64,000 nucleotides of DNA. Origin: a virus. The position numbers and the translations under genes were made by a program. The notes under the pieces are model-generated. The model searched no databases. It was not told the origin of the DNA and was given only the letters and a program-made list of their open reading frames with translations. How positions within the stretch are numbered: the first letter of the stretch is position 1; each line of letters opens with the position of its first letter. This document shows positions 3,878 through 63,627 of the stretch, piece after piece. Location of the stretch: IMG/VR virus record IMGVR_UViG_3300048589_001082, positions 1-64,000 of that record; one strand, written 5' to 3'.

Positions 3878-6800
3878 TCACCCCAGCTTCAGGCAGGGAA
3901 TGACTTCCATCACCGGCGGCTCCTGGCCCTCGCCGCCCGGCACGATCCACGAGTGGTCGCCCGACGAGGAGCGCCACCCCACCAGCCCGCCCGGTTGCGC
4001 AGCCGTGCGCCGGGCGTAGAAGTAGACCTCGGCCGGCGCGCCGCCGGGCGCGGTCAGCCAGTGCAGCTCGACCACGTCGCGCAGCGTCACGCCGCCCTCG
4101 CTCGTCCATGTGGCGTGCCGGGCGGCGAACTTGAGCCACGTCCGGTGGTAGCCCTCCTTCGGCTCGGCCGCCTTGCGGCAGTCGCCCTTATAGTAGAAGG
4201 ACACCAGCGGGTTGCGCTCGTAGGTCTGGCCCACCGTCCACCGGCGCGGGCACCACGGCGCGCCGTAGGTCAGGCCGTCGCGCCGCTGCACGTAGTACTT
4301 GCCGCCGCCGGGCGAGGTGTCCACCCCCCGGTAGACGGCCGCCGCGTCGGCCCAGAACTCCTCGAACTCGCCGCTCTTGACCTGGTAGAAGCGGCCGTTC
4401 CGCTCGACGGTCGTCAACCGCTGGTGGCCGTCGCGCCCACCGATGAGGTAGGCCAGCACGTGGACGCGGCCGTCGCCCCACAGGTACTCGGTCATATCGA
4501 TCGACGCCTGGGGCGGCGGCGCGGGCGGCGGGATGGTCGGCGGCGCGGCGACCAGCGGGCGGCCGTCCTCCCAGACGAATATCCGGTCGTAGCGCGGCAC
4601 TTCACACCAGTAGACCCGCAGCGGAGACTTGGCCCCCGGCGGCAGGGCGCGCATGTAGCGGTAGTGCTTGCCGCCGATCATCACCCCGCGCTCGCCGGGA
4701 ATGGGCGAGAAACCATCGGCCACGATCCGGGCGTGCAGGGCGAAGGTCGGGTTCCACTCCAGCGCCTCGACCGCGGCGACGCGCCACACTTCCGGCCCCG
4801 GAGCCGCCGCCGCCGGCCGCTGGCACAGCGCCCGCCACTCGGCGGCCGTGCCGCTGAACCGGTTGATGTCCAGCGCCTTCGACTGCACGCCCCAGGCGGC
4901 CCGGTCGGCGCTGATGTCCCGCACCTCGTGCTGCCACAGCGTCCAGGCCGTCCACGGCGCGGGCACGATCGGCCGCGCCGCGCTCGTCCAGGCGGCGATC
5001 CACAGCCGGTGGCGACTGCCCCACGCCGGGGCGCGCAGGGAGTTGCGCCAGTAGTTGAGCGAGGTGTAGATGATGGGCGGCTCGCCCAGTAGCGCTTCCA
5101 GCCTGTCCAGGTAGGCCCGCGCCCGCGCGGCCGTGTCCGGCCCCACGCCGGTCGGCTCCTCGAAGTCGGCGCACACCAGCCGCGGCGCGCCCACCTCGGT
5201 AATCAGGGCGGCGACCTTCTCGGCCTGCTGCACCGGGTCGAGCGACGGCCGCCAGTAGTGGTAGGTCAGGAAGGGCACGCCGTGACGGGCGGCCTCGGCC
5301 ACGTTGCGCCGCAGTTGGGTGTCCGTGCCCAGCCCGTCGCCCAGGCGGATGATCGCGCCGCCAATGCGCTTAGCCAGCGTCTCCCAGCGAATCTCCCCCT
5401 GGTGGTGGCTGACGTCTACCACCGGCGGGACAAGCGGCGGTTGCGGTTCCGGCGCGGGCGGCGGCGCGGGCGGCGGCGGCTCGACCGGCGGCGGCTCCGG
5501 GGCCGGTTCGGCCGCCGCCTGGCGCAGCTCCAGCGCGTCGAGGAACACCCCGTTCTGCGGCAGCGCGAACGGCAGGATAAAGTCCAGCTTCAGGTCGAAG
5601 GCCGCCGCCGGGGCGTCGAACGTCACGACGATGTGGTTCCACTGCCCCGGACGCAGCGCCAGCCAGCCCCCGGCCGTCGAGCCGGCGGTGACGTGCGCCC
5701 ACTCCGGGCGGCCGCCCGTCACGGCCTTGTCGCCCACGCGCACCCGGAACAGTCCGTCGCGCTGCTGGGGGTCGTTGGCCCAAATCTTGGCCTGCTCCGG
5801 CTTGGAGGTGTAGCCCTTGACCAGATCGGGAAAGACCGGCACGACCAGCCGCAGGCGGCGCGGCGCGACCGAAGCCGCGACCTGGGTAATGAGCGTGGCG
5901 TTGATCGCCCCGCCCCCCTTAAAGAGCTTCAGCGTGTGCCCGCCCTCCAGGATGAGGGCCTGCGGCTGGCCCTTGCGCTCGTCGGGGGCCAGCTTGCCTT
6001 CCGGCAGCCGGTTCATCTCCGGCCGCAGGAAGGGCCACTCCGACAGGGGATTGGGCCACGCGCCGTCTTTGGTCTCGCGCCAGTTGATGCGCCATCCGTT
6101 CGGTACTTGAAGTGCCATGATGGGGTAGCCGTTGGCGTCGTCGGGGTGGTAGTGCCCCTCCTCCCACCCGGCGTTGACCAAGAGGTTGGCGGCCGTCGGG
6201 GGCGGCGCGGGAATGGGCGCGGGGGCCGGGGGCGGCGCGGGCGTCGGGGGTGGCGTTGGCTCCCCACCCAGAGGCGGCGCGTCGCGGGCGATGATCGCTT
6301 GCGTCAGCGGCTCCATATAGCCGTTCATCTTCCGGCCCAGATCGCCCCAGGCCGCGCCTTCCTTGCCCAGTGTCCACAGGGCCAGCCCGCGCACTTCCGG
6401 CCGGGCGTAGAGGCGGCCGTAGGCGGTGACGATCTGCCCCACCCCATCGGCCGCCTCCGGCGCGTCATTGAGCGTCCAGCCGAACTCGGTCACGAACAGG
6501 GTCGGCCACGGCCGTGGGATGGCCTGCCAGCGGCCGACCAGCGCCGGCGCGTCGAGGGTGTCGGCCCGCAGGCTGTACTCATGCACGTCCAGGGCCAGCG
6601 TGTCGGGGTTGGCCCGCAGCAGCTTCAATAGCTCGGTCATGCGCGGCCCGGCCCACTGCCACGGCTCCGGCGTGCCCGGCGACCAGCCGAAGAGCGTCAG
6701 CCGCACCCCCTCGGCCGCGGCGTGTTCGGCCAGCCGCAGGGCGTGGGCGGCCAGCCACTCGCTGTTGTCCCAATAGATGCCGCCGTTCCACGTCACCAGC

Positions 6801-7198
6801 TTCCGGTACGGCCCCGGCCCGCCCATTTCCAGGTCTTCCGGTGAGAGCACAAAGGCCGGTTCGTTGGTGATGCCGAACCAGACCACATCCCGGTCGAGCT
6901 CCTTGGGCCACTTCAGCCGGTGGTACTCCCACTGGCGCGTGGCCGCCTCGCGCGGGTCGAGGCCGTACTCCGGCACGTCGAAGTCGGCGTGGCGGTAGAC
7001 CAGGGCCGCGGCGCGCCGGCGCTCGCGCGACCAGCCCGCCCGCTGCATCTTGTCCTGGGCCTCCCACACCGGCCCGGCGGCGTTGATGCTCATCACCACC
7101 GGGGGTATCCCGGCGGCGATGAGCGGGTCGAGGTAGCGCGCCCCCCACCCGTCGGCCGCATTGACGCTCGTGAACTTGAACCCGATGGGCATCTTCAT
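3878..7198 (-). CDS. Two-headed cell-wall hydrolase: clan A glycosidase plus GH25 muramidase
   Basis: 1106 residues with a modular plan. Residues 1-300 look like a TIM-barrel glycosidase of clan GH-A: the acid/base Glu113 in TNEPAF and the nucleophile Glu238 in FVTEFGW are in their expected settings. A Pro-rich linker (310-336) leads to a beta-sandwich, possibly carbohydrate-binding (337-560). A second Pro-rich linker (565-592) leads to a GH25 muramidase (593-790): Asp595 in DVSHHQG, Asp678 and Glu680 in ADFE, Asp777 in LDINRF. Residues 800-1106 form an unrecognised C-terminal domain. GH25 enzymes cut the MurNAc-GlcNAc bond of peptidoglycan. The first domain probably cuts another host polysaccharide. 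No signal peptide. The ATG at 7198 is preferred over an upstream frame extension that is Arg/Gly-rich and not gene-like. Either endolysin or tail-borne hydrolase; its own promoter at 7347 favours a lysis role. Confidence 0.8.
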   Translation of the reverse strand: MKMPIGFKFTSVNAADGWGARYLDPLIAAGIPPVVMSINAAGPVWEAQDKMQRAGWSRERRRAAALVYRHADFDVPEYGLDPREAATRQWEYHRLKWPKELDRDVVWFGITNEPAFVLSPEDLEMGGPGPYRKLVTWNGGIYWDNSEWLAAHALRLAEHAAAEGVRLTLFGWSPGTPEPWQWAGPRMTELLKLLRANPDTLALDVHEYSLRADTLDAPALVGRWQAIPRPWPTLFVTEFGWTLNDAPEAADGVGQIVTAYGRLYARPEVRGLALWTLGKEGAAWGDLGRKMNGYMEPLTQAIIARDAPPLGGEPTPPPTPAPPPAPAPIPAPPPTAANLLVNAGWEEGHYHPDDANGYPIMALQVPNGWRINWRETKDGAWPNPLSEWPFLRPEMNRLPEGKLAPDERKGQPQALILEGGHTLKLFKGGGAINATLITQVAASVAPRRLRLVVPVFPDLVKGYTSKPEQAKIWANDPQQRDGLFRVRVGDKAVTGGRPEWAHVTAGSTAGGWLALRPGQWNHIVVTFDAPAAAFDLKLDFILPFALPQNGVFLDALELRQAAAEPAPEPPPVEPPPPAPPPAPEPQPPLVPPVVDVSHHQGEIRWETLAKRIGGAIIRLGDGLGTDTQLRRNVAEAARHGVPFLTYHYWRPSLDPVQQAEKVAALITEVGAPRLVCADFEEPTGVGPDTAARARAYLDRLEALLGEPPIIYTSLNYWRNSLRAPAWGSRHRLWIAAWTSAARPIVPAPWTAWTLWQHEVRDISADRAAWGVQSKALDINRFSGTAAEWRALCQRPAAAAPGPEVWRVAAVEALEWNPTFALHARIVADGFSPIPGERGVMIGGKHYRYMRALPPGAKSPLRVYWCEVPRYDRIFVWEDGRPLVAAPPTIPPPAPPPQASIDMTEYLWGDGRVHVLAYLIGGRDGHQRLTTVERNGRFYQVKSGEFEEFWADAAAVYRGVDTSPGGGKYYVQRRDGLTYGAPWCPRRWTVGQTYERNPLVSFYYKGDCRKAAEPKEGYHRTWLKFAARHATWTSEGGVTLRDVVELHWLTAPGGAPAEVYFYARRTAAQPGGLVGWRSSSGDHSWIVPGGEGQEPPVMEVIPCLKLG

Positions 7199-7346
7199 GT
7201 GTATTCCCGCTCCCACGGCCGCGCGACGCAACTGCCCGCAACCGCGACATGGGCGGGCGGCCCAGCCACGGCCGTCCCGCCCCGCTACCACTACACTCTT
7301 CTCTTAATCCGCTACGCGCGGCTGCATCCGGTACGTTCCACCCCGC

Positions 7347-7374
7347 ATTATAATCGCAACCAATCTCAACGCAA
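7347..7374 (-). promoter_or_regulatory. Promoter with direct-repeat operator (site 2) for the lysin gene
   Basis: Minus-strand TATAAT (7347-7352) with TTGCGT (7369-7374) at 16 bp. The plus-strand element TCGCAACCAATCTCAACGCA (7354-7373), a copy of the direct-repeat motif, fills the spacer and most of the -35. A bound protein there would block polymerase. Confidence 0.65.
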
Positions 7375-7384
7375 CAAGGCGCGA

Positions 7385-8449
7385 TTAACGATGCACGGCG
7401 CTCAGGTACTTGGAGGCCGCCCGCAGGTTCGACGTGCCCCAGAAGTCACCGTCCTCATCGACCACGACCACCACGGCCGTGGCTCCGTTGGGCGCGGGGA
7501 AGCCGGAGGCCACGGCGTAGTCGTCATCGACCTTGTAGCTGCCGCACAGGCACGACAGCGCCGTCTGCCCGCGGTTGTTGAACTCGCGCACCACGCCCGA
7601 TGCGTGGGTGTGGGCGGCCACGCCCACCCGCCAGTAGTACGACCCGTCGAACTTGGCCTCGCGCTCGGTGGCGTGGGTGGGGTTGTAGATCGACGCCCCG
7701 CGCCACTTGTGCCGGGCCTTGAAGGGCACGGCCGCCTCGCCCACCTGCACCGTGAAGCGCAACTCGTGGGGGTGGTAGAGGATGTGGCGGCCGACGATCT
7801 GTTCCGTGACCTCGCGGAAGTAGTCCACCCCCGCCAGTAGTCCCGTCCAGTTGTCGTGGTTGCCGGCCACCGAGGCCACCAGCCGCGGGGCGATTCTTCT
7901 CAGCACCCGCCGCACCAGTGCCCACTCCTCGGAGATGCGGAAGGGGGTCTGGTCAACCCGCAGCGCCAGCAGCTTGCCGACGATGAAGTTGTCGAGCAAG
8001 TCCCCCACGGCGACGATGTAGAGGCCCGGTGTGGCAAGGATGTGGTCTATCTCGCGGTCGATGCGTTCGTAATCGACCCCCTCCCCGCCCAGGTGCAGGT
8101 CGGCCAGGAAGGCCAGACCCACTGCGCCGTAGTCGAACACCAGGCGCCCTTCGCGGGTGCGGGCCGCCAGTCGCTTGCGGCTCAACTCCACCGCCCGCTG
8201 CCAGACGGCCTCTTCGTCAATCCCTTCCAGTTCGGAAAGCGCCCCTTCGATGATGGGTACGGCCGCCGGGGGCCGGTACTTGGGGTCGGATTCGCGGGCC
8301 AGCCGGTCGCGGAACCCATACACCTTGCGCCGCACCGAGGTGGGCGTCATGCCGGGAAACAGGGGGTAAACGGTGTCGAACTTGCCGCCACTGCGTTGCC
8401 ACAGGTCTAGCGCCTGGACCATCAGCGTCTCATCCGTTGCCGGTGTCAA
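7385..8449 (-). CDS. Calcineurin-like metallophosphoesterase
   Basis: About 354 residues from a TTG start. The full two-metal signature is visible: D117-x-H119 in LADLHLGG, G149-D150-x-x-D153 in VGDLLDNF, G196-N-H-D199 in VAGNHDNW, His247 in ARHKW, and H280-x-H282 in AAHTHASG. The N-terminal 60 residues look like a helical DNA-binding-type segment (TPTSVRRKVYGFRDRL). The family hydrolyses phosphodiesters or phosphomonoesters; some phage members act on nucleotides or DNA ends. The TTG is chosen because AGAGGAG lies just upstream; the next candidate is an ATG at 8422. It is the last gene of the tail/lysis block, and the 7347 promoter lies directly after it. Confidence 0.8.
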   Translation of the reverse strand: MTPATDETLMVQALDLWQRSGGKFDTVYPLFPGMTPTSVRRKVYGFRDRLARESDPKYRPPAAVPIIEGALSELEGIDEEAVWQRAVELSRKRLAARTREGRLVFDYGAVGLAFLADLHLGGEGVDYERIDREIDHILATPGLYIVAVGDLLDNFIVGKLLALRVDQTPFRISEEWALVRRVLRRIAPRLVASVAGNHDNWTGLLAGVDYFREVTEQIVGRHILYHPHELRFTVQVGEAAVPFKARHKWRGASIYNPTHATEREAKFDGSYYWRVGVAAHTHASGVVREFNNRGQTALSCLCGSYKVDDDYAVASGFPAPNGATAVVVVVDEDGDFWGTSNLRAASKYLSAVHR

Positions 8450-8464
8450 ATGACTCCTCTCTCG

Positions 8465-8545
8465 AAGCGGCGACCCGCCGGCCGCGGCCTGCGCCGCGGG
8501 CGTGGCGCGTGCTACCCTACCGGAGCGCCGGCGGGTCGCCCGCTT
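8465..8545. repeat. Imperfect inverted repeat, 18-19 bp arms
   Basis: AAGCGGCGACCCGCCGGC (8465-8482) and its reverse complement with one extra base (8527-8545) enclose 44 bp. It fills the gap between 8576-8815 and the phosphoesterase gene. It could be a folded RNA element, a terminator without U-tract, or a small mobile repeat. The 11-mer GCGCGTGCTAC inside the loop also occurs at 3094-3104. Confidence 0.7.
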
Positions 8546-8575
8546 CCAAACGCGCCCCAACACCCAATGGCCATC

Positions 8576-8815
8576 TCAGTTCCATGATAGGGCCGCGGCC
8601 ACGTCCTCCGGTCGAAGGACGGCCGCGCCCACCAGGATGGCCGACGCAATATCGGCCACCTCGTCGTCGCCCATGCCCATCCGCCACGGCAGTAGCCCCA
8701 GCCACACTTCGGCCTCGGCCCGCGTGTCGAAGGTCACGGTTTCCCGGCGGCCGTCACGATACGTGACCGCGACGGCCCCCGGCCCATTCCAGTACTCCTC
8801 GCCCAGACGCAACAT
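8576..8815 (-). CDS. Small hypothetical protein
   Basis: 79 residues. The first half is a small beta-strand unit (VAVTYRDGRRETVTFDTRAEAEVWL), the second helical (VADIASAILVGAAVLRPEDV). No family recognised. It ends the series of small genes that follows the fibre gene. Confidence 0.5.
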   Translation of the reverse strand: MLRLGEEYWNGPGAVAVTYRDGRRETVTFDTRAEAEVWLGLLPWRMGMGDDEVADIASAILVGAAVLRPEDVAAALSWN

Positions 8816-8843
8816 ACCCGAACCCCGCTGCCCTTCGGGGCGG

Positions 8844-9140
8844 TTAGCGCGCCGGCGCGAAGTGCTTGGCGATCTGGTACGTGCCCTGGTTGGCCAGCAG
8901 CGCGTACAGGAACATCGACGCCAGGAGCTTCCACCCGGCCTCGTCGCAGGTGATCCAGGCGTAGCGCAGGTAGCACGACCCGACCAGGATGACCACGACC
9001 GCCAGCAGCAGCGCCGCCAGCATGACCAGCGCCTTGCGCTTGCTGTCCTGCCGCTCGTACCAGTCGCTCAGCCCCGGCACGTAGCCGAAGCCCAGCGACA
9101 GCACCATCCCCGCCACCATGACCAACAGATTCTCGCTCAT
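8844..9140 (-). CDS. Holin candidate, three membrane helices
   Basis: 98 residues with three likely membrane helices: about 5-24, 38-60 and 72-92. The last carries LLANQGTYQIAKH, resembling the helix ending ANQATY in several phage holin-like proteins (recalled from memory, not searched). A holin oligomerises in the inner membrane to time lysis. Position beside other small membrane proteins and just after the tail genes fits a lysis cassette. The GH25 lysin is one transcription unit downstream. Assignment is by topology and context. Confidence 0.55.
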   Translation of the reverse strand: MSENLLVMVAGMVLSLGFGYVPGLSDWYERQDSKRKALVMLAALLLAVVVILVGSCYLRYAWITCDEAGWKLLASMFLYALLANQGTYQIAKHFAPAR

Positions 9141-19386: not shown

Positions 19387-22300
19387 CTATCCCCTCTGGT
19401 GGCGCAGCCCCTCGAAGTACAGATCGCGCAGCGGGTCGGCCGACGGCCGCCCTTCCAGGGCCACGTTGTAGCCGCCGTAGATGTTGACCGTCTGGGCCGG
19501 GTTCAGGCCGGCCATCTCCACCTGCACCGTCCGGTTCAGTCCGCTCTGGAGGCGGCCCTGCATCGCCCGCGTGTCGGCCAGCCCAATGCGCCGCATCTCG
19601 CCCACCGCCTGGCGCATCCGGCGCTGCACGTCGCGCGTCTCGCCCAGCCCGGCGGCCAGCCCGGCCATGACCTGCTGCCCGATGTCACGGAAGACGGCCG
19701 ACGGCGAGGCGATCTGCAACTCCTCGTTGGCCCGCTCCACCAGCTGCCGCGTGGCCTCGGTCATGGCCGCCAGAATGTCGGTCATGGAGGCGTCCAGCCC
19801 CAGGGTCAGCCCGTCCAGCACGTCGCGGCCGAGGTTGTTCTCGCGGATGAGGTTCAGGAGGTCTACCTGCGTCTGGAGGAAGTCCAGCCGCGACCGCTGC
19901 TCCTCTATCGCCGCCAGCTCCTCCTGCTGCCGGATATACTCCTGCTCCAGCCGGTTGCGCTCGTCGGCCAGCCGGATGGCCTCGTCCAGATCGCGCTTGA
20001 TCTCCACGTTGTTGGCGTAGGCCGACGACCCTTGCAGCGTGCGGATGAAGTAGGCCCGGCTCTCCGGGGTCATCTCCAGCAGGTTATCGACCACAATGTC
20101 GCCGAACGTCTGGCGCAGGCGATCCATCGTCTCGCCCAGCCGGTCGGTCGTGCCCTCGATGCTCTCGGCCAGCGCGTCGGCCTGAAGGCCGAAGACGTTG
20201 TCGCCAATCCCCAGCAACCCACCCCCGGCGGCCGTCAGCCCGCGCAGCATCCCCAACTGCTCCAGATCGGCCAGGTCGCGCAGGATGCGGTCGCGCTGCT
20301 CAACCATGTCGTCGCCCAGGTTCGCCAACTGCTGGCGCAGCGCCGCCCGCTCCCGCTCGACGCCGACGGCGATACCGCTGACGATGGCGTCGCCGACCTG
20401 CATAAACAGGCGGGACGGGGACTCGGCCATGATGGCGTCCATCGTCTGGTTGAAGGTGTCGTCGGCGATCTCCTTCATCTTGGCCGCCAGTTCCCCCCGG
20501 CGGCGCTCGACGCCGATGATGACGCCGTCCATCATCGACTCGCCGACGATCTCCATGTTGCGGATGGTGTCGTCCCAGGCGGCGACCACCGCTTCGGTGA
20601 CGCGCTCCATCTGGGACGTGACGCCATCCTCGCCGTCCTCGATGCCGACCGCCAGCCCTTCCATGACGTTGGCGGCAATGTCCTGGAAGACGCCGGAGGG
20701 GGACTCGATTCGCAGCGCCTCTTTCACCGGGTCGATGAGGCCGCCCTGCACCATCTCCTCGGCCGCCGCCGTCACCAGTTCGGTGTGCTCGCGGATGCCC
20801 GTCTCCACTCCGGCCGGCACGGCCTGGCCCACGTCCGTGGCCGCCGTGGTGACGGTGTCCATGCCGCCGCTGATGCCGGCGGCGATGTTGTCGGGCACGG
20901 CCTCGCCGGCGGCCGTGGCCTGGGTCGCCATCTCTTCCGACATGGGAGCCATGGCCAGCGGCACTTCGGCGGCCATCGTCTCGGCCGTGGGCAGCACGCC
21001 GCCGTCCCCCTCGATCTTGGCGATGAACCTGTCCAGTTCGGCCATGGCCTCATCGACCGAGATGTTGACCTTGGGGTCGGTCGAGGCCATGAGGGTGGCC
21101 AGCTCTTCGATCTTGCGCTTGACCGCCGCGGCCTGAAGCGCGGCCTCGGCCTGGGCCTCGGTCATGATGCCCGTGGCCGTGGCGTAGGCGGTGATGACCT
21201 CCGGCGCAGCCCCCATCTGCACCAGTTGGTCGTAGAGACCCTGGCGCACCGCGTCCACGTTGACCGCCAGCCCCTGCTCGGCCGTCGAGACGTTCTCGAC
21301 CGTCGGCGGAATCCCGGCCAGCAAGCCTTCGTAGTGGGCAATCTCGTAGGCGGTATTGGTTATCTTCTCGGTGAGCTTGTCCTGCTCCATCCCGTAGGTG
21401 CCGATGCCGGACACCAGTTCGTCGTAGGTGGTCTGGAGCTTCTTGATCTCCTCCGTGTACCGCTCGGCCAGCGCCCGCTGCTCCTCGGTCGGCCCCGATA
21501 CCTGGGTCGTCACCGTGACGGTGCGCTCCGGGGAGACCAGCGGCGCGTCGGCCTGGGGCAACTCGGTCACGTAGTCGGCCTGCACCGCGCCGAAGGCGGC
21601 GGCGTACTGCTCGGCCGCGGCCTTGGCCTCATCCAGCGCCGCCTTGTTGCGCGACGTGGCGGCCGTCAGCGCGTCGATGCCGGCGGCGAACTTGTCCGAA
21701 CGGTCGGCCGCCAGCTTCATGCCGTCGCCGGTCTGGCCTATCTGTGAGCGAACGCGGGCCAGTTGGGTCACGGTCAACCCCGCCGAACGGGTCACTTCGT
21801 TATAGCTCTCGGCGTAGGCCAGCATGGCCTTATCGGCCGAGGCGGCTTCCCGCGCAACGCGCTTGGCCGCGTCGGCGGCGAGCTTCTCCGCCTCGCGCAC
21901 CGCCTCCGGCGAGACCATGTCCTCGGCCTCGATGAGCGCGCCTTCCTCGCTCCAGCCCTTCAGGAACTGCTCGCGGAAGCGTTGCCCGGACTCATACGCG
22001 CCCCAGCCGCGCTCGAAGTCCCTGGTAGCCAGCCCTTCGGCAATGCCCCGCGCCGCCTTGCGCCCCAGGTCGCCCCAGTCGATGTTGAGCCACCAGGTGA
22101 TGATCTTGGCCGCCAGTGACGCCAGCGCCGGGCGAATGGCCTCCCACAGATTGGAGAAGACCTTGACCAGCATGTCCCAGGTGCGCTCCCAAATCTGGCG
22201 CAACTGGCGGCCGACCTCCTCCCAATCCCCCCGGAAGATGGCGGCGAAAATCTTGAACACCGACTTGATGTTCTCCAGGGCGGTGCGGAGGTAGAGGGTG

Positions 22301-23595
22301 ACGGCGTCCCAGATGAGGCGCGCCGAGCGCATGATGCCCGCGCCATGCTCGTCCCACAGCCTGCGGATGAAGGCCAGCCCCTGCCCGATGACCTCGCGCA
22401 CCTTCGCTACGGCCTCGGCCGTCCTGGCCCGAATCCCACCCCAGTCGCGCGCCCAGGCCACGGCCAGCAGGCCCACGGCGGCGATGACCAGCCCGATGGG
22501 GCCGGTCAGGGCCGCCAGTACGCCGCTCAGACCGCCCACGGCGGCCGTGGCCCCGGTGGCCGCGGCTCCGGCGGCGGCCGTGCCCGCGGCGGCGGCCGTC
22601 CCGGCCGTGGCCGTCAGGCCGAAGAAGGCCGCCACGCCCGACACCACCGCCTTGAGCGCGGTGAACCCGGCGACGACCTTGGTCACGACCGACAGGGCGG
22701 TCAGGGCCGCCAGCAGCCCGCCCATGACCTTGACCAGCAGCGGCCCGTGCTCAACGGCCAGGGGGACGATGACGGCCATCGCGTCGCCCAACTGGCGGGC
22801 GAAGTTGGCGATGCCCTCCTGCGTCTCCGGGCTGTCGAGAATGGCGACGATCTCTTCCAGCCCGCTCTTGGCCCCCTCGAAGAACGGCCGCAGCGCCGAC
22901 CCCAGGGCCATCTTGGCCGAATCGGAGATGGTGGACATCAGGCCCGACCAGGTGGTGGCCTGCTTGGCCATCGCCCCGGAGAAGCCGTCCATGTGCCCTT
23001 GCAGAACGGCGAAAATCTCGTCGGCCGACGCCCCCGCCTCGCGCAGCCGGTTCATCTCGTTGATGACCGCCGGGGACACCGCGCCCAGTTGCATGAGGTT
23101 CTGGGCCGCCTCGCCGAACGGCTGCCCGCCCTGGATGGCCGCATACGCCCGGCCGATCCAGAAGGAGATGTCCTCGATCGGCGCGCCGATGGCCGCGGCC
23201 GTGTCCCCAATGCGCGTCAGGTTCGCTTCGGTGTCCAGCGCGTCGCCGCCGAAGACGCGCATCTGGCGGGATGCCTGGATGATGGGGCCTGTTTCAAAGG
23301 GGGTGCGTTTCGCGAACTCGAAGAGACCGGCGACGTGCTTCTGCGCCTCGTCGGCCGATCCCATCAGCGTCTCGAACTGGAGCTGGGTCGTCTCCAGCGT
23401 GGCGTTCATGTCGATAGCCGACTTGACCGCCAGCCCGAACCCGGCCGCCGCGCCGAGGCCCAGCCCGGCGAAGGCCAGCTTGGCCCCGTTCTGGAGCGTG
23501 TGCAGCGCCTTCTGGGCTTCGGAGACGCCCCGGCGGAGTCCCGACGTGTCGAGATCGATCTTCGCGTGCGCGCTGCCGAGTAAAATCGAGTTCAT
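19387..23595 (-). CDS. Tape measure protein
   Basis: 1402 residues, the longest structural gene. The N-terminus has the typical tape-measure start (DTSGLRRGVSEAQKALHTL) and a TP901-type core with MNATLETTQLQFETLMGS. Residues about 285-400 carry hydrophobic membrane-like segments (GVAAFFGLTATAGTAAAAG), and several long helical stretches follow to about 1290. Tape measures set tail length and enter the host membrane during DNA injection. At roughly 0.15 nm per residue, 1402 residues correspond to a tail of about 200 nm; this is a rule of thumb. Confidence 0.9.
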   Translation of the reverse strand: MNSILLGSAHAKIDLDTSGLRRGVSEAQKALHTLQNGAKLAFAGLGLGAAAGFGLAVKSAIDMNATLETTQLQFETLMGSADEAQKHVAGLFEFAKRTPFETGPIIQASRQMRVFGGDALDTEANLTRIGDTAAAIGAPIEDISFWIGRAYAAIQGGQPFGEAAQNLMQLGAVSPAVINEMNRLREAGASADEIFAVLQGHMDGFSGAMAKQATTWSGLMSTISDSAKMALGSALRPFFEGAKSGLEEIVAILDSPETQEGIANFARQLGDAMAVIVPLAVEHGPLLVKVMGGLLAALTALSVVTKVVAGFTALKAVVSGVAAFFGLTATAGTAAAAGTAAAGAAATGATAAVGGLSGVLAALTGPIGLVIAAVGLLAVAWARDWGGIRARTAEAVAKVREVIGQGLAFIRRLWDEHGAGIMRSARLIWDAVTLYLRTALENIKSVFKIFAAIFRGDWEEVGRQLRQIWERTWDMLVKVFSNLWEAIRPALASLAAKIITWWLNIDWGDLGRKAARGIAEGLATRDFERGWGAYESGQRFREQFLKGWSEEGALIEAEDMVSPEAVREAEKLAADAAKRVAREAASADKAMLAYAESYNEVTRSAGLTVTQLARVRSQIGQTGDGMKLAADRSDKFAAGIDALTAATSRNKAALDEAKAAAEQYAAAFGAVQADYVTELPQADAPLVSPERTVTVTTQVSGPTEEQRALAERYTEEIKKLQTTYDELVSGIGTYGMEQDKLTEKITNTAYEIAHYEGLLAGIPPTVENVSTAEQGLAVNVDAVRQGLYDQLVQMGAAPEVITAYATATGIMTEAQAEAALQAAAVKRKIEELATLMASTDPKVNISVDEAMAELDRFIAKIEGDGGVLPTAETMAAEVPLAMAPMSEEMATQATAAGEAVPDNIAAGISGGMDTVTTAATDVGQAVPAGVETGIREHTELVTAAAEEMVQGGLIDPVKEALRIESPSGVFQDIAANVMEGLAVGIEDGEDGVTSQMERVTEAVVAAWDDTIRNMEIVGESMMDGVIIGVERRRGELAAKMKEIADDTFNQTMDAIMAESPSRLFMQVGDAIVSGIAVGVERERAALRQQLANLGDDMVEQRDRILRDLADLEQLGMLRGLTAAGGGLLGIGDNVFGLQADALAESIEGTTDRLGETMDRLRQTFGDIVVDNLLEMTPESRAYFIRTLQGSSAYANNVEIKRDLDEAIRLADERNRLEQEYIRQQEELAAIEEQRSRLDFLQTQVDLLNLIRENNLGRDVLDGLTLGLDASMTDILAAMTEATRQLVERANEELQIASPSAVFRDIGQQVMAGLAAGLGETRDVQRRMRQAVGEMRRIGLADTRAMQGRLQSGLNRTVQVEMAGLNPAQTVNIYGGYNVALEGRPSADPLRDLYFEGLRHQRG

Positions 23596-25608: not shown

Positions 25609-25633
25609 CTCTCAACTCCCCTTCCCTTGTCTG

Positions 25634-25653
25634 TAGGGACGAATCTCAACCAC
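25634..25653 (+). promoter_or_regulatory. Direct-repeat motif, site 3
   Basis: TAGGGACGAATCTCAACCAC, a copy of the window-wide 10+10 direct-repeat motif, in the 58-bp gap before 25273-25608. No promoter can be recognised here, so this copy is the odd one out. Confidence 0.6.
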
Positions 25654-34559: not shown

Positions 34560-34610
34560 ATTATATGAATAGTCCAATCGCGGTCAAATACTCGTTGAGA
34601 TTGGTTGCAG
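34560..34610 (-). promoter_or_regulatory. Late promoter with direct-repeat motif (site 4)
   Basis: Minus-strand TTGACC (34582-34587) and TATAAT (34560-34565), 16-bp spacer. The direct-repeat motif CTGCAACCAATCTCAACGAG (minus, 34591-34610) ends 3 bp upstream of the -35, where an activator or a repressor could act. Start site near 34553 gives a leader of about 118 nt containing the terminator. Confidence 0.7.
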
Positions 34611-34659
34611 CCGACGGCCGCTTCCGTAGGTAGTTCTTCCCACCGCGCGGCCGACCGCG

Positions 34660-34804
34660 CCGACCTCGGCCGCGTCCCCTGCCCGGCGGCCGTCTGTCAC
34701 CGGTCTGTCCGGCTCCGCTCCGGCGCGCCCGGCGTCCTGTCACCGGTCTGACGCGCGGCCGTCCGCACCGACCTCGGCCGCGTCCCCTGCCCGGCGGCCG
34801 TCTG
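34660..34804. repeat. Duplicated 37-bp segment in non-coding DNA
   Basis: A 37-bp sequence (34660-34696) recurs exactly at 34768-34804, 108 bp apart; TGTCACCGGTCTG also occurs twice (34695-34707 and 34738-34750). They lie in the ~300-bp gap 34611-34911, which otherwise holds only the terminator of the upstream gene. A 60-codon frame here (34561-34743) is Arg/Gly-rich and is not called. Confidence 0.85.
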
Positions 34805-34854
34805 GCGGCGGTGGGCCGCGCCGGCCGTCGCCTGTCTCGAAGGGCGTCCGGGCC

Positions 34855-35418: not shown

Positions 35419-35484
35419 AGTATAACATCTGCGTTATTAGATGTAAATAAGTAGAAATACTCATTTTGTTGCGATTGGTTGCGA
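35419..35484 (-). promoter_or_regulatory. Strong promoter with operator-like repeats (site 5)
   Basis: Minus-strand TTTACA (35442-35447) and TATACT (35419-35424) at 17 bp, with an extended TG. The inverted repeat ACATCT/AGATGT (35425-35430 and 35439-35444) covers the spacer and -35. The direct-repeat motif TCGCAACCAATCGCAACAAA (minus, 35465-35484) lies 17 bp upstream. Drives the 34912-35349 gene. Confidence 0.75.
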
Positions 35485-35508
35485 AGGCGCGGCCGTCCGG
35501 CCGGACAG

Positions 35509-46792: not shown

Positions 46793-46832
46793 ATTATAGC
46801 AAGTGGTTGCGATTTGTCCCAATCTGTACAAT
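46793..46832. promoter_or_regulatory. Divergent promoters sharing one direct-repeat operator (site 6)
   Basis: Leftward: TGCTATAAT (-10 at 46793-46798) with TTGGGA (46817-46822), 18 bp. Rightward: TGGTTG (46804-46809) and TACAAT (46827-46832), 17 bp. The motif TTGGGACAAATCGCAACCAC (minus, 46803-46822) covers both -35 elements, so one bound protein would repress both directions. Confidence 0.75.
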
Positions 46833-48861: not shown

Positions 48862-49236
48862 TTATCCTGTCTCCCTCTCCGCGGCCGTGTCAATGGCCCG
48901 GACGTAGCGCACGTCGCGGGGCCATACCCGGTAGCGGCTCCACGTCGCGCTCGGCTGGTCAACGTCGTCCGGCCACAGGTAGTTGTCCTCGTCGTCGCCG
49001 TACCACTGGAGCCATAGCTCGTCCGGCGGCGCACCTGTCTCCGGCTCGTCGGCCGGGTGCTTCAACTCGGCCAGCTCGTCCTTCAGCTTCTCCACCCGGC
49101 CGCGCAGCGCCTCGTTCTCGGCCTGCATCAGGTAGTAGTCGGCCGCCGTCAGTCCGGCGGTGATGAGCGCGTCCTCGGCGTCTACCACGATCTCGGTTCC
49201 GTCGGCACGACGGATGGTGACTGTCTGACTACCCAT
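48862..49236 (-). CDS. Hypothetical protein with coiled coil
   Basis: 124 residues. N-terminal beta (QTVTIRRADGTEIVVDAEDA), a coiled helix (LMQAENEALRGRVEKLKDEL), an acidic linker, and a C-terminal Trp-rich beta part (DDEDNYLWPDDVDQPSATWS). Similar plan to 39927-40229. Overlaps 49229-49531 by 8 bases. Confidence 0.5.
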   Translation of the reverse strand: MGSQTVTIRRADGTEIVVDAEDALITAGLTAADYYLMQAENEALRGRVEKLKDELAELKHPADEPETGAPPDELWLQWYGDDEDNYLWPDDVDQPSATWSRYRVWPRDVRYVRAIDTAAERETG

Positions 49237-49531
49237 AGCGTGCCTCTACCCTGACGGCTTGCTCAGCCTCATTGCGCTCGGCCATCTCGATCAGCTCGTC
49301 CAGGCGCTCGCCCTGCGTCCAGCCGTCGTTCGTCGCCAGCTTCGCTACCAGCAGCATCAGGTTGTGACCCGGCAGGCCGGCCGGGTCGCCGTCTCGATAC
49401 TCGACGCAGTTGCGAACGAGGCGCAACTCGCGCGCGGTGAAAAAGTCGGCAATGTACGGCGCTTGCTCCGCCCACTGCGCACGATCCGTCTGCTCCAACT
49501 CGGCCGCTCGTTCATCTGACAAAGGTTCCAC
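49229..49531 (-). CDS. Hypothetical small helical protein
   Basis: 100 residues, helical and acidic (SDERAAELEQTDRAQWAEQA; ARELRLVRNCVEYRDGDPAG), with a short VRVEARYG end. It resembles other small phage proteins of this block; no family recognised. Confidence 0.5.
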   Translation of the reverse strand: MEPLSDERAAELEQTDRAQWAEQAPYIADFFTARELRLVRNCVEYRDGDPAGLPGHNLMLLVAKLATNDGWTQGERLDELIEMAERNEAEQAVRVEARYG

Positions 49532-49569
49532 TGTTATCCTCCGTTCGTTATCGTTCTCGTCGCGGCCGA

Positions 49570-49704
49570 CTACCGGCCCCGGCCCGCCCGGCGGCCGTTC
49601 GTGACGCGCCGCGCGACCCAGACGCCGGCCGCCAGAACGGCCAGCGTGCCGGGGGCCAGGCAGAAAAAGAACTCGACCAAGTAACTTGCTTCACCAAACA
49701 TCAT
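49570..49704 (-). CDS. Very small membrane protein
   Basis: 44 residues with one membrane helix (LAPGTLAVLAAGVWVARRVT) after a short aromatic N-terminus (EASYLVEFFF) and a basic tail (RRVTNGRRAGRGR). Two overlapping ATG codons follow GGAGAG immediately after the GNAT gene's stop. Small single-helix proteins in phages can be lysis accessories or inner-membrane anchors; no family recognised. Confidence 0.55.
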   Translation of the reverse strand: MMFGEASYLVEFFFCLAPGTLAVLAAGVWVARRVTNGRRAGRGR

Positions 49705-50069
49705 TACTCTCCTGTTGTTGGCGTGACGGCCGCCGGCCCGGATAGCTGCAACCGCCACAGATTGAGTGTTCGCCCGGAGCGCGTCGTCTCCGTACCATCC
49801 AGCGCAAAGCCCATTGCCGCGTACCAGCCGTTGGCCGGCAGTTCCGCCGGGCACTTGGCGAAGAGACTCGTCGCCCCGGCCGCCCGCGCTTTCTTCTTGA
49901 GCAGGTTCAGCAGCAGGCGGCCGACGCCCTGTCCCTGGTGGTCGCGCTGGACGATGATCTCCCGGATGGTCAACTGCCCGTCGCGGCGCACGTGGTAGTG
50001 GCACATGCCGTGCTCGACCAGCAGCAGTTCGCCGCGCTCGTTAGACTCGTTCAGGGTCTCGAAGATCAT
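49704..50069 (-). CDS. GNAT-family N-acetyltransferase
   Basis: 121 residues, the length of a minimal GNAT domain. The CoA-binding motif (DHQGQGVGRLLLNLLKKKAR) matches the Q/R-x-x-G-x-G/A signature, and the following AAMGFALDGTETTR stretch fits the acceptor side. GNATs acetylate amines on proteins or small molecules. In a phage it may modify a host protein or a DNA base precursor; no target is suggested. Overlaps 50066-50743 by 4 bases. Confidence 0.75.
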   Translation of the reverse strand: MIFETLNESNERGELLLVEHGMCHYHVRRDGQLTIREIIVQRDHQGQGVGRLLLNLLKKKARAAGATSLFAKCPAELPANGWYAAMGFALDGTETTRSGRTLNLWRLQLSGPAAVTPTTGE

Positions 50070-50743
50070 GGCTCCACCGCCGGCAGGGACTTAGGACGCC
50101 ACGCCAGAACCAGATCGTCGTAGACCGACAGGCGCTCCCCGATCCAGTAGCCCGGCGCGTCCTCGTCGTCCGGGTGGTTGCTGTGAACGTAACTGGCGTT
50201 AAGAATGACCTCGCACGCCTGGCCGTTCTCCGTCGGTCGCTCCGCCATTGGCCGGAAGCGGCGGTCGCCCGGCGCACTAGGCGGCAGTACCTCGGCCGCC
50301 GCTTGCAGTTCGGCCACACGGTCGCGGTTTTCCCTGATCGCGTCGAGGATGCTCTGTCGCGTTGCCGTTTGCCAGTCCAGGCCGAGGGCCGTGGCAATGT
50401 CGTTCGCTCTGTCCCACGCGGCAAAGCCGTCTTCAATCAGAACGTCCAGGGCGGCGCTGAGCGCGTCCAGATCGGCCCGGCTGGCGTCGGGCAAGCCCGG
50501 CAGGGCGTACAGCCTCCTTAGCGCCCGCGACGCCTTGCAGGTCGCGCACTGGCATTGGCCGTCATCTACTTCTTCCGCGGCGCGGTGTAGCTGCACGACA
50601 TAGCGTTTCATCTTGGCCAGCGTCTCGGTTAGCGCCGTCACCTGCCGCCGCAACTGGTCAACATCTTCGCTCGCGCCGGTCAGCAGGGCCGCCCAGGTCG
50701 CCTGCTCCTCATCGTGCGTGATCGCAGTCACATTGATGGGCAT
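50066..50743 (-). CDS. Hypothetical protein with zinc-like Cys cluster
   Basis: 225 residues. N-terminal coiled coil (DVDQLRRQVTALTETLAKMK), then a Cys cluster QCQCATCKA, then helices (ALSAALDVLIEDGFAAWDRA), then a beta part (RPTENGQACEVILNASYVHS). Could be a DNA-binding accessory protein. No family recognised. Confidence 0.5.
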   Translation of the reverse strand: MPINVTAITHDEEQATWAALLTGASEDVDQLRRQVTALTETLAKMKRYVVQLHRAAEEVDDGQCQCATCKASRALRRLYALPGLPDASRADLDALSAALDVLIEDGFAAWDRANDIATALGLDWQTATRQSILDAIRENRDRVAELQAAAEVLPPSAPGDRRFRPMAERPTENGQACEVILNASYVHSNHPDDEDAPGYWIGERLSVYDDLVLAWRPKSLPAVEP

Positions 50744-50752
50744 GGCTCCTCC

Positions 50753-51004
50753 CTACCAGATCGACCCGGCCGTAAGCGCCGAGGCCATCCCGCAGGCGGA
50801 GATGACCAGAAAGGCGCAGACCGCCAGCACAATGAGCAGCAGCAGCAACCCCGCTACGCCCAGCCGCTCCGTGCCGGGGGCGTAGTGGGGTTTCTCCGGC
50901 GGCCGTCCGCCGGGCGGGTTGACGTTGACCTCCTGCCCCGCGCTGCCCTTGGGCAGCGACCAGATGTTGACTTCCTGATCCGCCTTCTTCTGCTTGTGTT
51001 TCAT
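50753..51004 (-). CDS. Small membrane protein
   Basis: 83 residues. A polar, Pro-rich N-terminus (EVNIWSLPKGSAGQEVNVNP) and one membrane helix at about 47-72 (RLGVAGLLLLLIVLAVCAFL). Type II topology likely, with the N-terminal half inside. It precedes the triple-HTH gene and may anchor a regulator; that is inference. Confidence 0.5.
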   Translation of the reverse strand: MKHKQKKADQEVNIWSLPKGSAGQEVNVNPPGGRPPEKPHYAPGTERLGVAGLLLLLIVLAVCAFLVISACGMASALTAGSIW

Positions 51005-51031: not shown

Positions 51032-51730
51032 CTACTCCTCCCCCGGCGCAAGCCACCGCTCGCCGGGCAGGACAATACCGCGCGCCCCGTCCCCCTCCAG
51101 GCCGACGCGGCCGTCCTCGGCCAGCCGCAGCAGCCAGTACTTGACCGCCGTCTTCGACCCCAGTCCCGACAGCGCCACCAGTTCGCCGTGGGTCGGGCTA
51201 CGGCCGCCGTGCGCGCGCTTGTAGGCCACAATGCAGGCGTAGAGCGCGCCGGCCTGTCCGCTCTGCGGCCGGGCACGGCGCGGCTTGCGGTCGGTTCCCT
51301 CGCGCCGCCGCGCCAGCCACGCATCCACGTCAGCCCGCGCGAAACGAACGCGCTTGCCGACCCGCGCCGAAGGCGTCAGGCGGCCGTCGCGGATGGCCTT
51401 CTCCACCGCCTGGCGGCTCAGCCCGGCCGCGGCGGCGACATCGTTGATGGTCAGCAGTTCCCTGTCGTTCGTCATCTCAACCCGTTCTCCTCCCTCCGGC
51501 GCAAGCCACCGCTCGCCGGGTAGCGCGATCTCGCGGCCGTGGCCGAAGCCGGACGGCGCGATGCGGCCGACGACCGCCAGTTGTTCCAGATACGCCTGGG
51601 CCACCGCGGTCGAGCGGACGCCCAGCCCGCGGGCCACGTCCCGCAGCGCCGGGCTACGGCCGCCGTGCGCCCGCTTGTAGGCCACGATACCGGCGTAGAC
51701 GCTCTCCAGCGCCCAGGGCGACACGTACAC
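51032..51730 (-). CDS. Triple-HTH DNA-binding protein (wHTH-HTH17-wHTH)
   Basis: 232 residues from a GTG after GGAG. Residues 10-78 and 163-229 are two winged-helix domains with nearly identical ends: AGIVAYKRAHGGRSP at 13-27 against ACIVAYKRAHGGRSP at 165-179, both closing in LPGERWLAP. The LxAxKRAHGGRSP-type start is typical of LexA-type DNA-binding wHTH domains. Between them, residues 92-142 form an excisionase-type HTH (LLTINDVAAAAGLSRQAVEK, then VDAWLARRREG). A protein with two linked wHTHs would suit direct-repeat operators one turn apart, which occur nine times in this window. An internal ATG at 51475, after GGGAGGAG, may give a shorter HTH17-wHTH form. Confidence 0.8.
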   Translation of the reverse strand: MYVSPWALESVYAGIVAYKRAHGGRSPALRDVARGLGVRSTAVAQAYLEQLAVVGRIAPSGFGHGREIALPGERWLAPEGGERVEMTNDRELLTINDVAAAAGLSRQAVEKAIRDGRLTPSARVGKRVRFARADVDAWLARRREGTDRKPRRARPQSGQAGALYACIVAYKRAHGGRSPTHGELVALSGLGSKTAVKYWLLRLAEDGRVGLEGDGARGIVLPGERWLAPGEE

Positions 51731-57662: not shown

Positions 57663-57682
57663 TTGGTTGCGACTGGTTGCGA
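57663..57682 (-). promoter_or_regulatory. Direct-repeat motif, site 7
   Basis: TCGCAACCAGTCGCAACCAA on the minus strand, a perfect two-fold repeat of TCGCAACCA in 10-bp register. It lies just downstream of the -10 of the 57691 promoter, covering the first transcribed bases, a repressor-like position. Confidence 0.65.
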
Positions 57683-57690
57683 TTTCCTGC

Positions 57691-63596: not shown

Positions 63597-63627
63597 ATTG
63601 TACCATCTTGGGACGAATTTCAACCAG
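63597..63627 (-). promoter_or_regulatory. Promoter with direct-repeat operator (site 8)
   Basis: Minus-strand TGGTACAAT (extended -10 at 63597-63602) with GGTTGA (63620-63625) at 17 bp. The plus-strand motif TTGGGACGAATTTCAACCAG (63608-63627) covers the -35 and most of the spacer. The predicted leader is very short, with the Shine-Dalgarno GGAGG almost at its 5' end. Confidence 0.6.

Follow-up and report, generated by a model that had tools for sequence, protein, structure and literature searches.

BldC (PDB 6ama, 6amk) is a stand-alone 68-aa protein consisting of a MerR-like single winged-helix (wHTH) unit, whose protomers line up head to tail on direct repeats of 9 bp, and response regulators are well-characterised bacterial binders of direct repeats (both PMC5859096). 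The cluster A mycobacteriophage immunity repressor (TipsytheTRex) acts as a monomer with two linked domains on an asymmetric 13-bp site (PMC9283540). The regulator analyzed here is encoded in a stretch of 64,000 nucleotides (hereafter, the window) from a 100,464-bp virus record, G000, and has the domain order LexA-type wHTH – HTH_17 – LexA-type wHTH in a chain of 232 aa. Among the fold matches, the central domain came closest to BldC (TM about 0.75 by target), with which it is also colinear in sequence; the window domain, however, is fused to one or two wHTHs. In the way it may work, the protein would resemble the TipsytheTRex repressor, with several linked DNA-binding domains in one chain and many dispersed asymmetric sites; the second domain of that repressor is a different one, a stoperator domain, to which no match was present among the fold matches listed. 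The outer domains have the wHTH fold of the LexA DNA-binding domain (PF01726; PDB 1lea, 3jso), with an ungapped match across helices 2-3, but the Pfam match is under the cut-off and the window protein does not carry the S24 peptidase domain of LexA. No S24 peptidase or C-terminal autoprotease was found in the protein, or in the records of G000 and its sister phage G001, which rules out that this regulator is a self-cleaving repressor like LexA.

The layout of an HTH_17 followed by a wHTH is already known, and the extra N-terminal wHTH is the new part. The best viral fold match, Mycobacteriophage Pixie gp83 (G1D4Z2, 158 aa; assigned as gp83 by protein length), has a weak HTH_17 match and then a second wHTH-like region, but is without the N-terminal wHTH and shows no close sequence similarity to the window protein. 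Bacterial proteins of ~145 aa (L067, L068 and L070), obtained by searching phylum-wide with a Propionibacteriaceae genome as the centre, carry HTH_17 and wHTH in the order of the two-domain core; their wHTH, however, is of the HTH_24/MarR type rather than the LexA type, and there is no duplication. A search of INPHARED gave no match at E 0.01, a plasmid search gave weak HTH_17 matches only, and matches in GTDB genomes were confined to the HTH_17 part. Among the relatives of the small protein encoded upstream, none had the regulator adjoining. The initial annotation had regarded the three-domain plan as new. In other phages the two-domain layout recurs in G001 and Pixie gp83, whereas the collections searched yielded no further protein with the three-domain order, in which wHTHs flank HTH_17.

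Domain architecture and homology of the two winged helices

Pfam, PDB profile, AlphaFold and Foldseek results agree on three DNA-binding domains, of which the outer two are of the LexA type, as had been read from the sequence at the outset. HTH_17 in the middle of the protein matched Pfam at E 9e-12 (45.5 bits versus a cut-off of 27) and at E 1.5e-13 in the genome scan, and LexA_DNA_bind matched residues 24-57 at E 2.5e-4, under the Pfam curated cut-off. A profile of three wHTHs run against the PDB retrieved LexA (best E 1.8e-4). The structure prediction, a single-sequence AlphaFold model, gave three compact HTH units (pLDDT mostly 80-91) joined by linkers of low confidence (residues 74-89 and 151-157); with a full-length pTM of 0.34, the per-domain folds of this model are usable and the relative placement of the domains is not. 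Foldseek retrieved BldC bound to DNA and LexA, each as a single-domain match. These results establish the architecture of the regulator, and the coordinates of its parts are listed in Table 1.

Table 1. Parts of the regulator gene and operator-like sites, in window coordinates
Feature	Position	Strand	Basis or context
Regulator gene, long form	51032..51730	-	232 aa, GTG start; open frame, third-position GC, Shine-Dalgarno (SD)
N-terminal LexA-type wHTH + linker (residues 1-85)	51476..51730	-	Missing in sister phage alignment; LexA_DNA_bind match
Candidate two-domain short form	51032..51475	-	147 aa from internal ATG; 76% identity to complete sister protein; SD
Central HTH_17 domain (MerR/BldC/excisionase-like)	51302..51457	-	Pfam HTH_17; Foldseek BldC-DNA structures
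C-terminal LexA-type wHTH	51035..51247	-	Three-wHTH profile retrieves LexA structures, E 1.8e-4 to 3e-3
Operator-like site	57666..57685	+	Just downstream of -10; promoter-like 57720-57691, minus strand, 10/12
Operator-like site	46806..46825	+	Inside promoter-like 46822-46793, minus strand; upstream of soon-starting plus-strand gene
Operator-like site	7351..7370	-	Beside TATAAT
Operator-like site	25631..25650	-	Intergenic; motif scan
Operator-like site	34594..34613	+	Intergenic; motif scan
Operator-like site	35468..35487	+	Intergenic; motif scan
Operator-like site	63605..63624	-	Just upstream of TACAAT box + SD

The N-terminal (wHTH1) and C-terminal (wHTH2) winged helices are 51% identical over 69 aa (E 5e-18), and their Smith-Waterman score of 153, where 2000 shuffles reached at most 62, lies 22 standard deviations above the shuffles; their homology is therefore certain. 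Repeats are also present in the gene at the DNA level (50 nt at 92% and 43 nt at 84%). The initial annotation had called the two winged helices near-identical. This holds for residues 13-27 (AGIVAYKRAHGGRSP) and 165-179 (ACIVAYKRAHGGRSP) and for the sequence LPGERWLAP, which closes both copies, but not for the domains as a whole or for their recognition helices, which differ. In the model, the near-identical 15 residues cover the last part of helix 1 together with the loop that leads into helix 2, outside the DNA-reading helix. DNA identity between wHTH1 and wHTH2 falls from 85% over the opening 18 codons to 51% over the middle 40 and rises again to 88% over the last 11, and that between wHTH2 and its ortholog in the sister phage is 83% and 85% in the flanks and 78% in the middle. 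The flanks of the two copies thus match the closeness of wHTH2 to its ortholog, whereas the middles diverge (51% versus 78%). At the positions aligned without gaps to LexA S39, N41, A42, E44 and E45, which we take to be the base contacts in the LexA-DNA complex, wHTH1 has S, A, V, Q and A, wHTH2 has S, T, A, K and Y, and the sister protein has S, T, A, Q and R, so that wHTH1 and wHTH2 differ at four of the five. The scaffold residues are conserved between the two. Because the recognition helices differ, the copies are not expected to read the same bases. A search for a donor copy of wHTH1 elsewhere in G000 or G001 found none.

Searches of IMG/VR with the whole protein, a two-domain profile and a wHTH profile found a sole relative, in phage G001 (a 62,994-bp contig). 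In G001, the stop of the same upstream gene is followed, after 8 nt, by an ATG equivalent to window position 51475, and the protein is without the entire first wHTH; the indel is clean, measures ~260 bp, and lies after the stop of the upstream gene and ahead of the start codon. Given that the G001 gene begins at the 51475-equivalent codon, the core of the regulator is the two-domain HTH_17–wHTH chain, which is found both in window positions 51032-51475 and in the G001 protein. Within this core, the two phages have the same HTH_17 recognition segment, SRQAVEKAIR, whereas the wHTH recognition helix has changed. From these sequences we infer that the N-terminal wHTH was gained in the window phage rather than lost in G001, with the reservation that a protein carried by two phages only leaves gain and loss indistinguishable. 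As one phage has the extra domain and its sister does not, the pair amounts to a small natural experiment on a regulator gaining or losing a DNA-binding domain, and it also shows a recognition helix changing while the scaffold stays.

Two blocks stand out in the alignment of the phages. About 1.8 kb (window 49050-50850; G001 about 21150-22950) is nearly 100% identical, while the phages are otherwise mostly 70-86% identical on the regulator's side; this block is, to judge from its identity, a recent recombination event ending beside the regulator gene. In the other, which includes the ParB gene, G000 76063-79799 and G001 5179-8924 are 95% identical over 3.7 kb.

We consider it probable that the protein is a phage transcription regulator with a two-domain HTH_17–wHTH core and an N-terminal second copy of the wHTH, produced from two starts and acting at the promoters of its own phage. 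By this account, the second wHTH copy would have been joined in frame to the N-terminus of the core, the long protein would be made from a GTG that is coupled to the upstream gene's stop, and the start at 51475, with its strong SD, would probably also yield the two-domain form. The two wHTHs, on the same scaffold, would most likely read different bases, unless one of them makes a protein contact. The protein would most likely occupy promoters of the phage that encodes it and act there as repressor or co-regulator, its DNA binding and targets being proposed from sequence context, and the HTH_17 domain would supply the specificity common to both phages.

The direct-repeat motif and its candidate binders

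The motif GTTGMRAYYNGTYSC, often followed by NA, is an asymmetric element of 18 bp with two halves 10 bp apart; as a candidate operator it can also be written GTTGMGATTSGTYSC. G000 has 11 GTTGMRAYYNGTYSC sites, seven of them in the window (Table 1), where shuffles give 0.03, confirming that the repeated 10+10 bp motif noted at the outset is real. G001 has six sites and one looser one (shuffles give 0), and several of these coincide in position with sites in G000. The sites are intergenic or in leaders, overlap promoter-like sequences, and occur in both orientations relative to transcription. The site at 57666..57685 and its promoter-like sequence precede the minus-strand gene cluster that contains the regulator gene. 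In both phages conservation extends from position -2 to position +16, and no additional conserved positions, as expected of a third half-site unique to the window phage, were found. Because the motif has the same extent in the one-wHTH and the two-wHTH phage, it is not coupled to the number of wHTHs. The motif set looks like an operator set, and a promoter-associated direct-repeat operator set common to both phages looks like a real regulatory system. We also considered the motif as a -35 box and dropped this idea because its distance to the -10-like hexamer varies between sites. Separately, the window contains two 61-nt intergenic repeats (34644-34704 and 34752-34812) that are 92% identical and 108 bp apart.

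The three-HTH protein, in either form, is a tentative candidate for the binder of this dispersed 18-bp asymmetric operator, GTTGMRAYYNGTYSC-N-A, a role that we rate as possible but rather unlikely. The intergenic and leader positions of the motif, its overlap with promoter-like sequences and its place at the head of the regulator's gene cluster are consistent with such a role, as is the fact that the motif, like the HTH_17 recognition helix, is common to both phages; within the protein, the binding unit could be the HTH_17 domain, with BldC on 9-bp repeats (PMC5859096) as precedent, or a linked pair of domains, as in the cluster A monomer repressor (PMC9283540). However, the two phages have different wHTH recognition helices but the same motif, and the phage encodes other DNA-binding proteins. 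The sites, moreover, lie in both orientations relative to transcription, which is not known of stoperators.

An OmpR-type response regulator encoded at G000 92030-92722 is an equally good candidate binder. Its product combines a weak receiver domain with a Trans_reg_C match (E 9e-11), direct-repeat binding is described for response regulators (PMC5859096), and a motif copy (91983-91997) is located just downstream of its gene. Were this protein to read the motif, which we again hold to be somewhat unlikely, the three-HTH protein would have other targets. Against it, no Trans_reg_C match was found in the motif-carrying G001 record, although this absence weighs little because the record is of 63 kb and has no counterpart of G000 86-100 kb. 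No relative of the OmpR-like regulator was found in IMG/VR. Either the HTH_17 domain or the OmpR-type regulator would explain the direct repeat at least as well as the paired wHTHs.

Translation starts and the reach of the long form

The regulator gene lies on the minus strand, which the initial annotation had not recorded, and is preceded by DNA methyltransferase (methylase) and RusA genes. The TGA stop of the gene upstream lies 4 nt before the GTG start and is overlapped by the SD, and GGAG stands seven bases 5' of the GTG. SD energies are -8.3 kcal/mol for the GTG and -14.5 kcal/mol for the internal ATG at 51475, as compared with a median of -7.5 kcal/mol for called genes. Since a usable SD is present at both starts, two products are plausible, and the second start is plausible in that the whole sister gene starts at the equivalent codon; the internal start proposed earlier is supported by its ATG, its strong SD and its equivalence to the start of the sister gene.

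The stronger SD of the internal ATG and its equivalence to the sister start would also fit a fortuitous long frame, in which only the 51475 product is made and the N-terminal wHTH is the decaying remnant of a separate gene. We regard this as unlikely. Third-position GC is high throughout the frame (0.87 in the N-terminal segment, like the remainder of the gene), and codon-position GC is as in real genes. The frame is free of stops and retains the scaffold residues, and its GTG has an SD coupled to the stop upstream.

A more elaborate version of the two-product model, in which one gene gives two regulators whose forms compete for the 18-bp operators or bridge them differently, is improbable to our minds; if it were true, duplication and re-specification of the wHTH would have created a new regulatory or immunity specificity between the sister phages.

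The initial annotation had proposed that the two linked wHTHs of the long form recognize both halves of the 10+10 bp repeat. In its favour, the chain contains two domains that are homologous and the site has two halves that follow a 10-bp period, but the G001 protein has one wHTH and its motif has the same two halves and the same extent, and the recognition helices of wHTH1 and wHTH2 differ at the LexA-contact-equivalent positions given above. We consider this reading very unlikely.

Excisionase likeness and phage lifestyle

The similarity of the central domain to HTH_17/phrog_66 makes an excisionase (recombination directionality factor) conceivable, but the neighbours of the gene are DNA methylase and RusA genes and not an integrase, and we hold this role to be very improbable. 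The excisionase HTH of the initial annotation survives as an HTH_17 domain, and its excisionase likeness is reduced to a resemblance in fold. Neither a tyrosine integrase (PF00589) nor a serine recombinase (PF00239) was found in the G000 or G001 records, which may be incomplete, and the role is unlikely because no integrase or resolvase was found in either.

G000 encodes a ParB (76049-77113, by Pfam) and a ParA-like protein (94968-95915, by eye from sequence). With no integrase found, this pair possibly reflects a plasmid-like prophage state. Related frames with HTH_17-like units are present at G000 71911-73194 (427 aa, with two such units) and at about 75200-76050 (two, both weak), as against a single gene of this kind in G001. 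With 731 copies in the 100-kb G000 record, the palindrome CGGCCG is about four times as frequent as any other palindromic hexamer, and G001 is similar.
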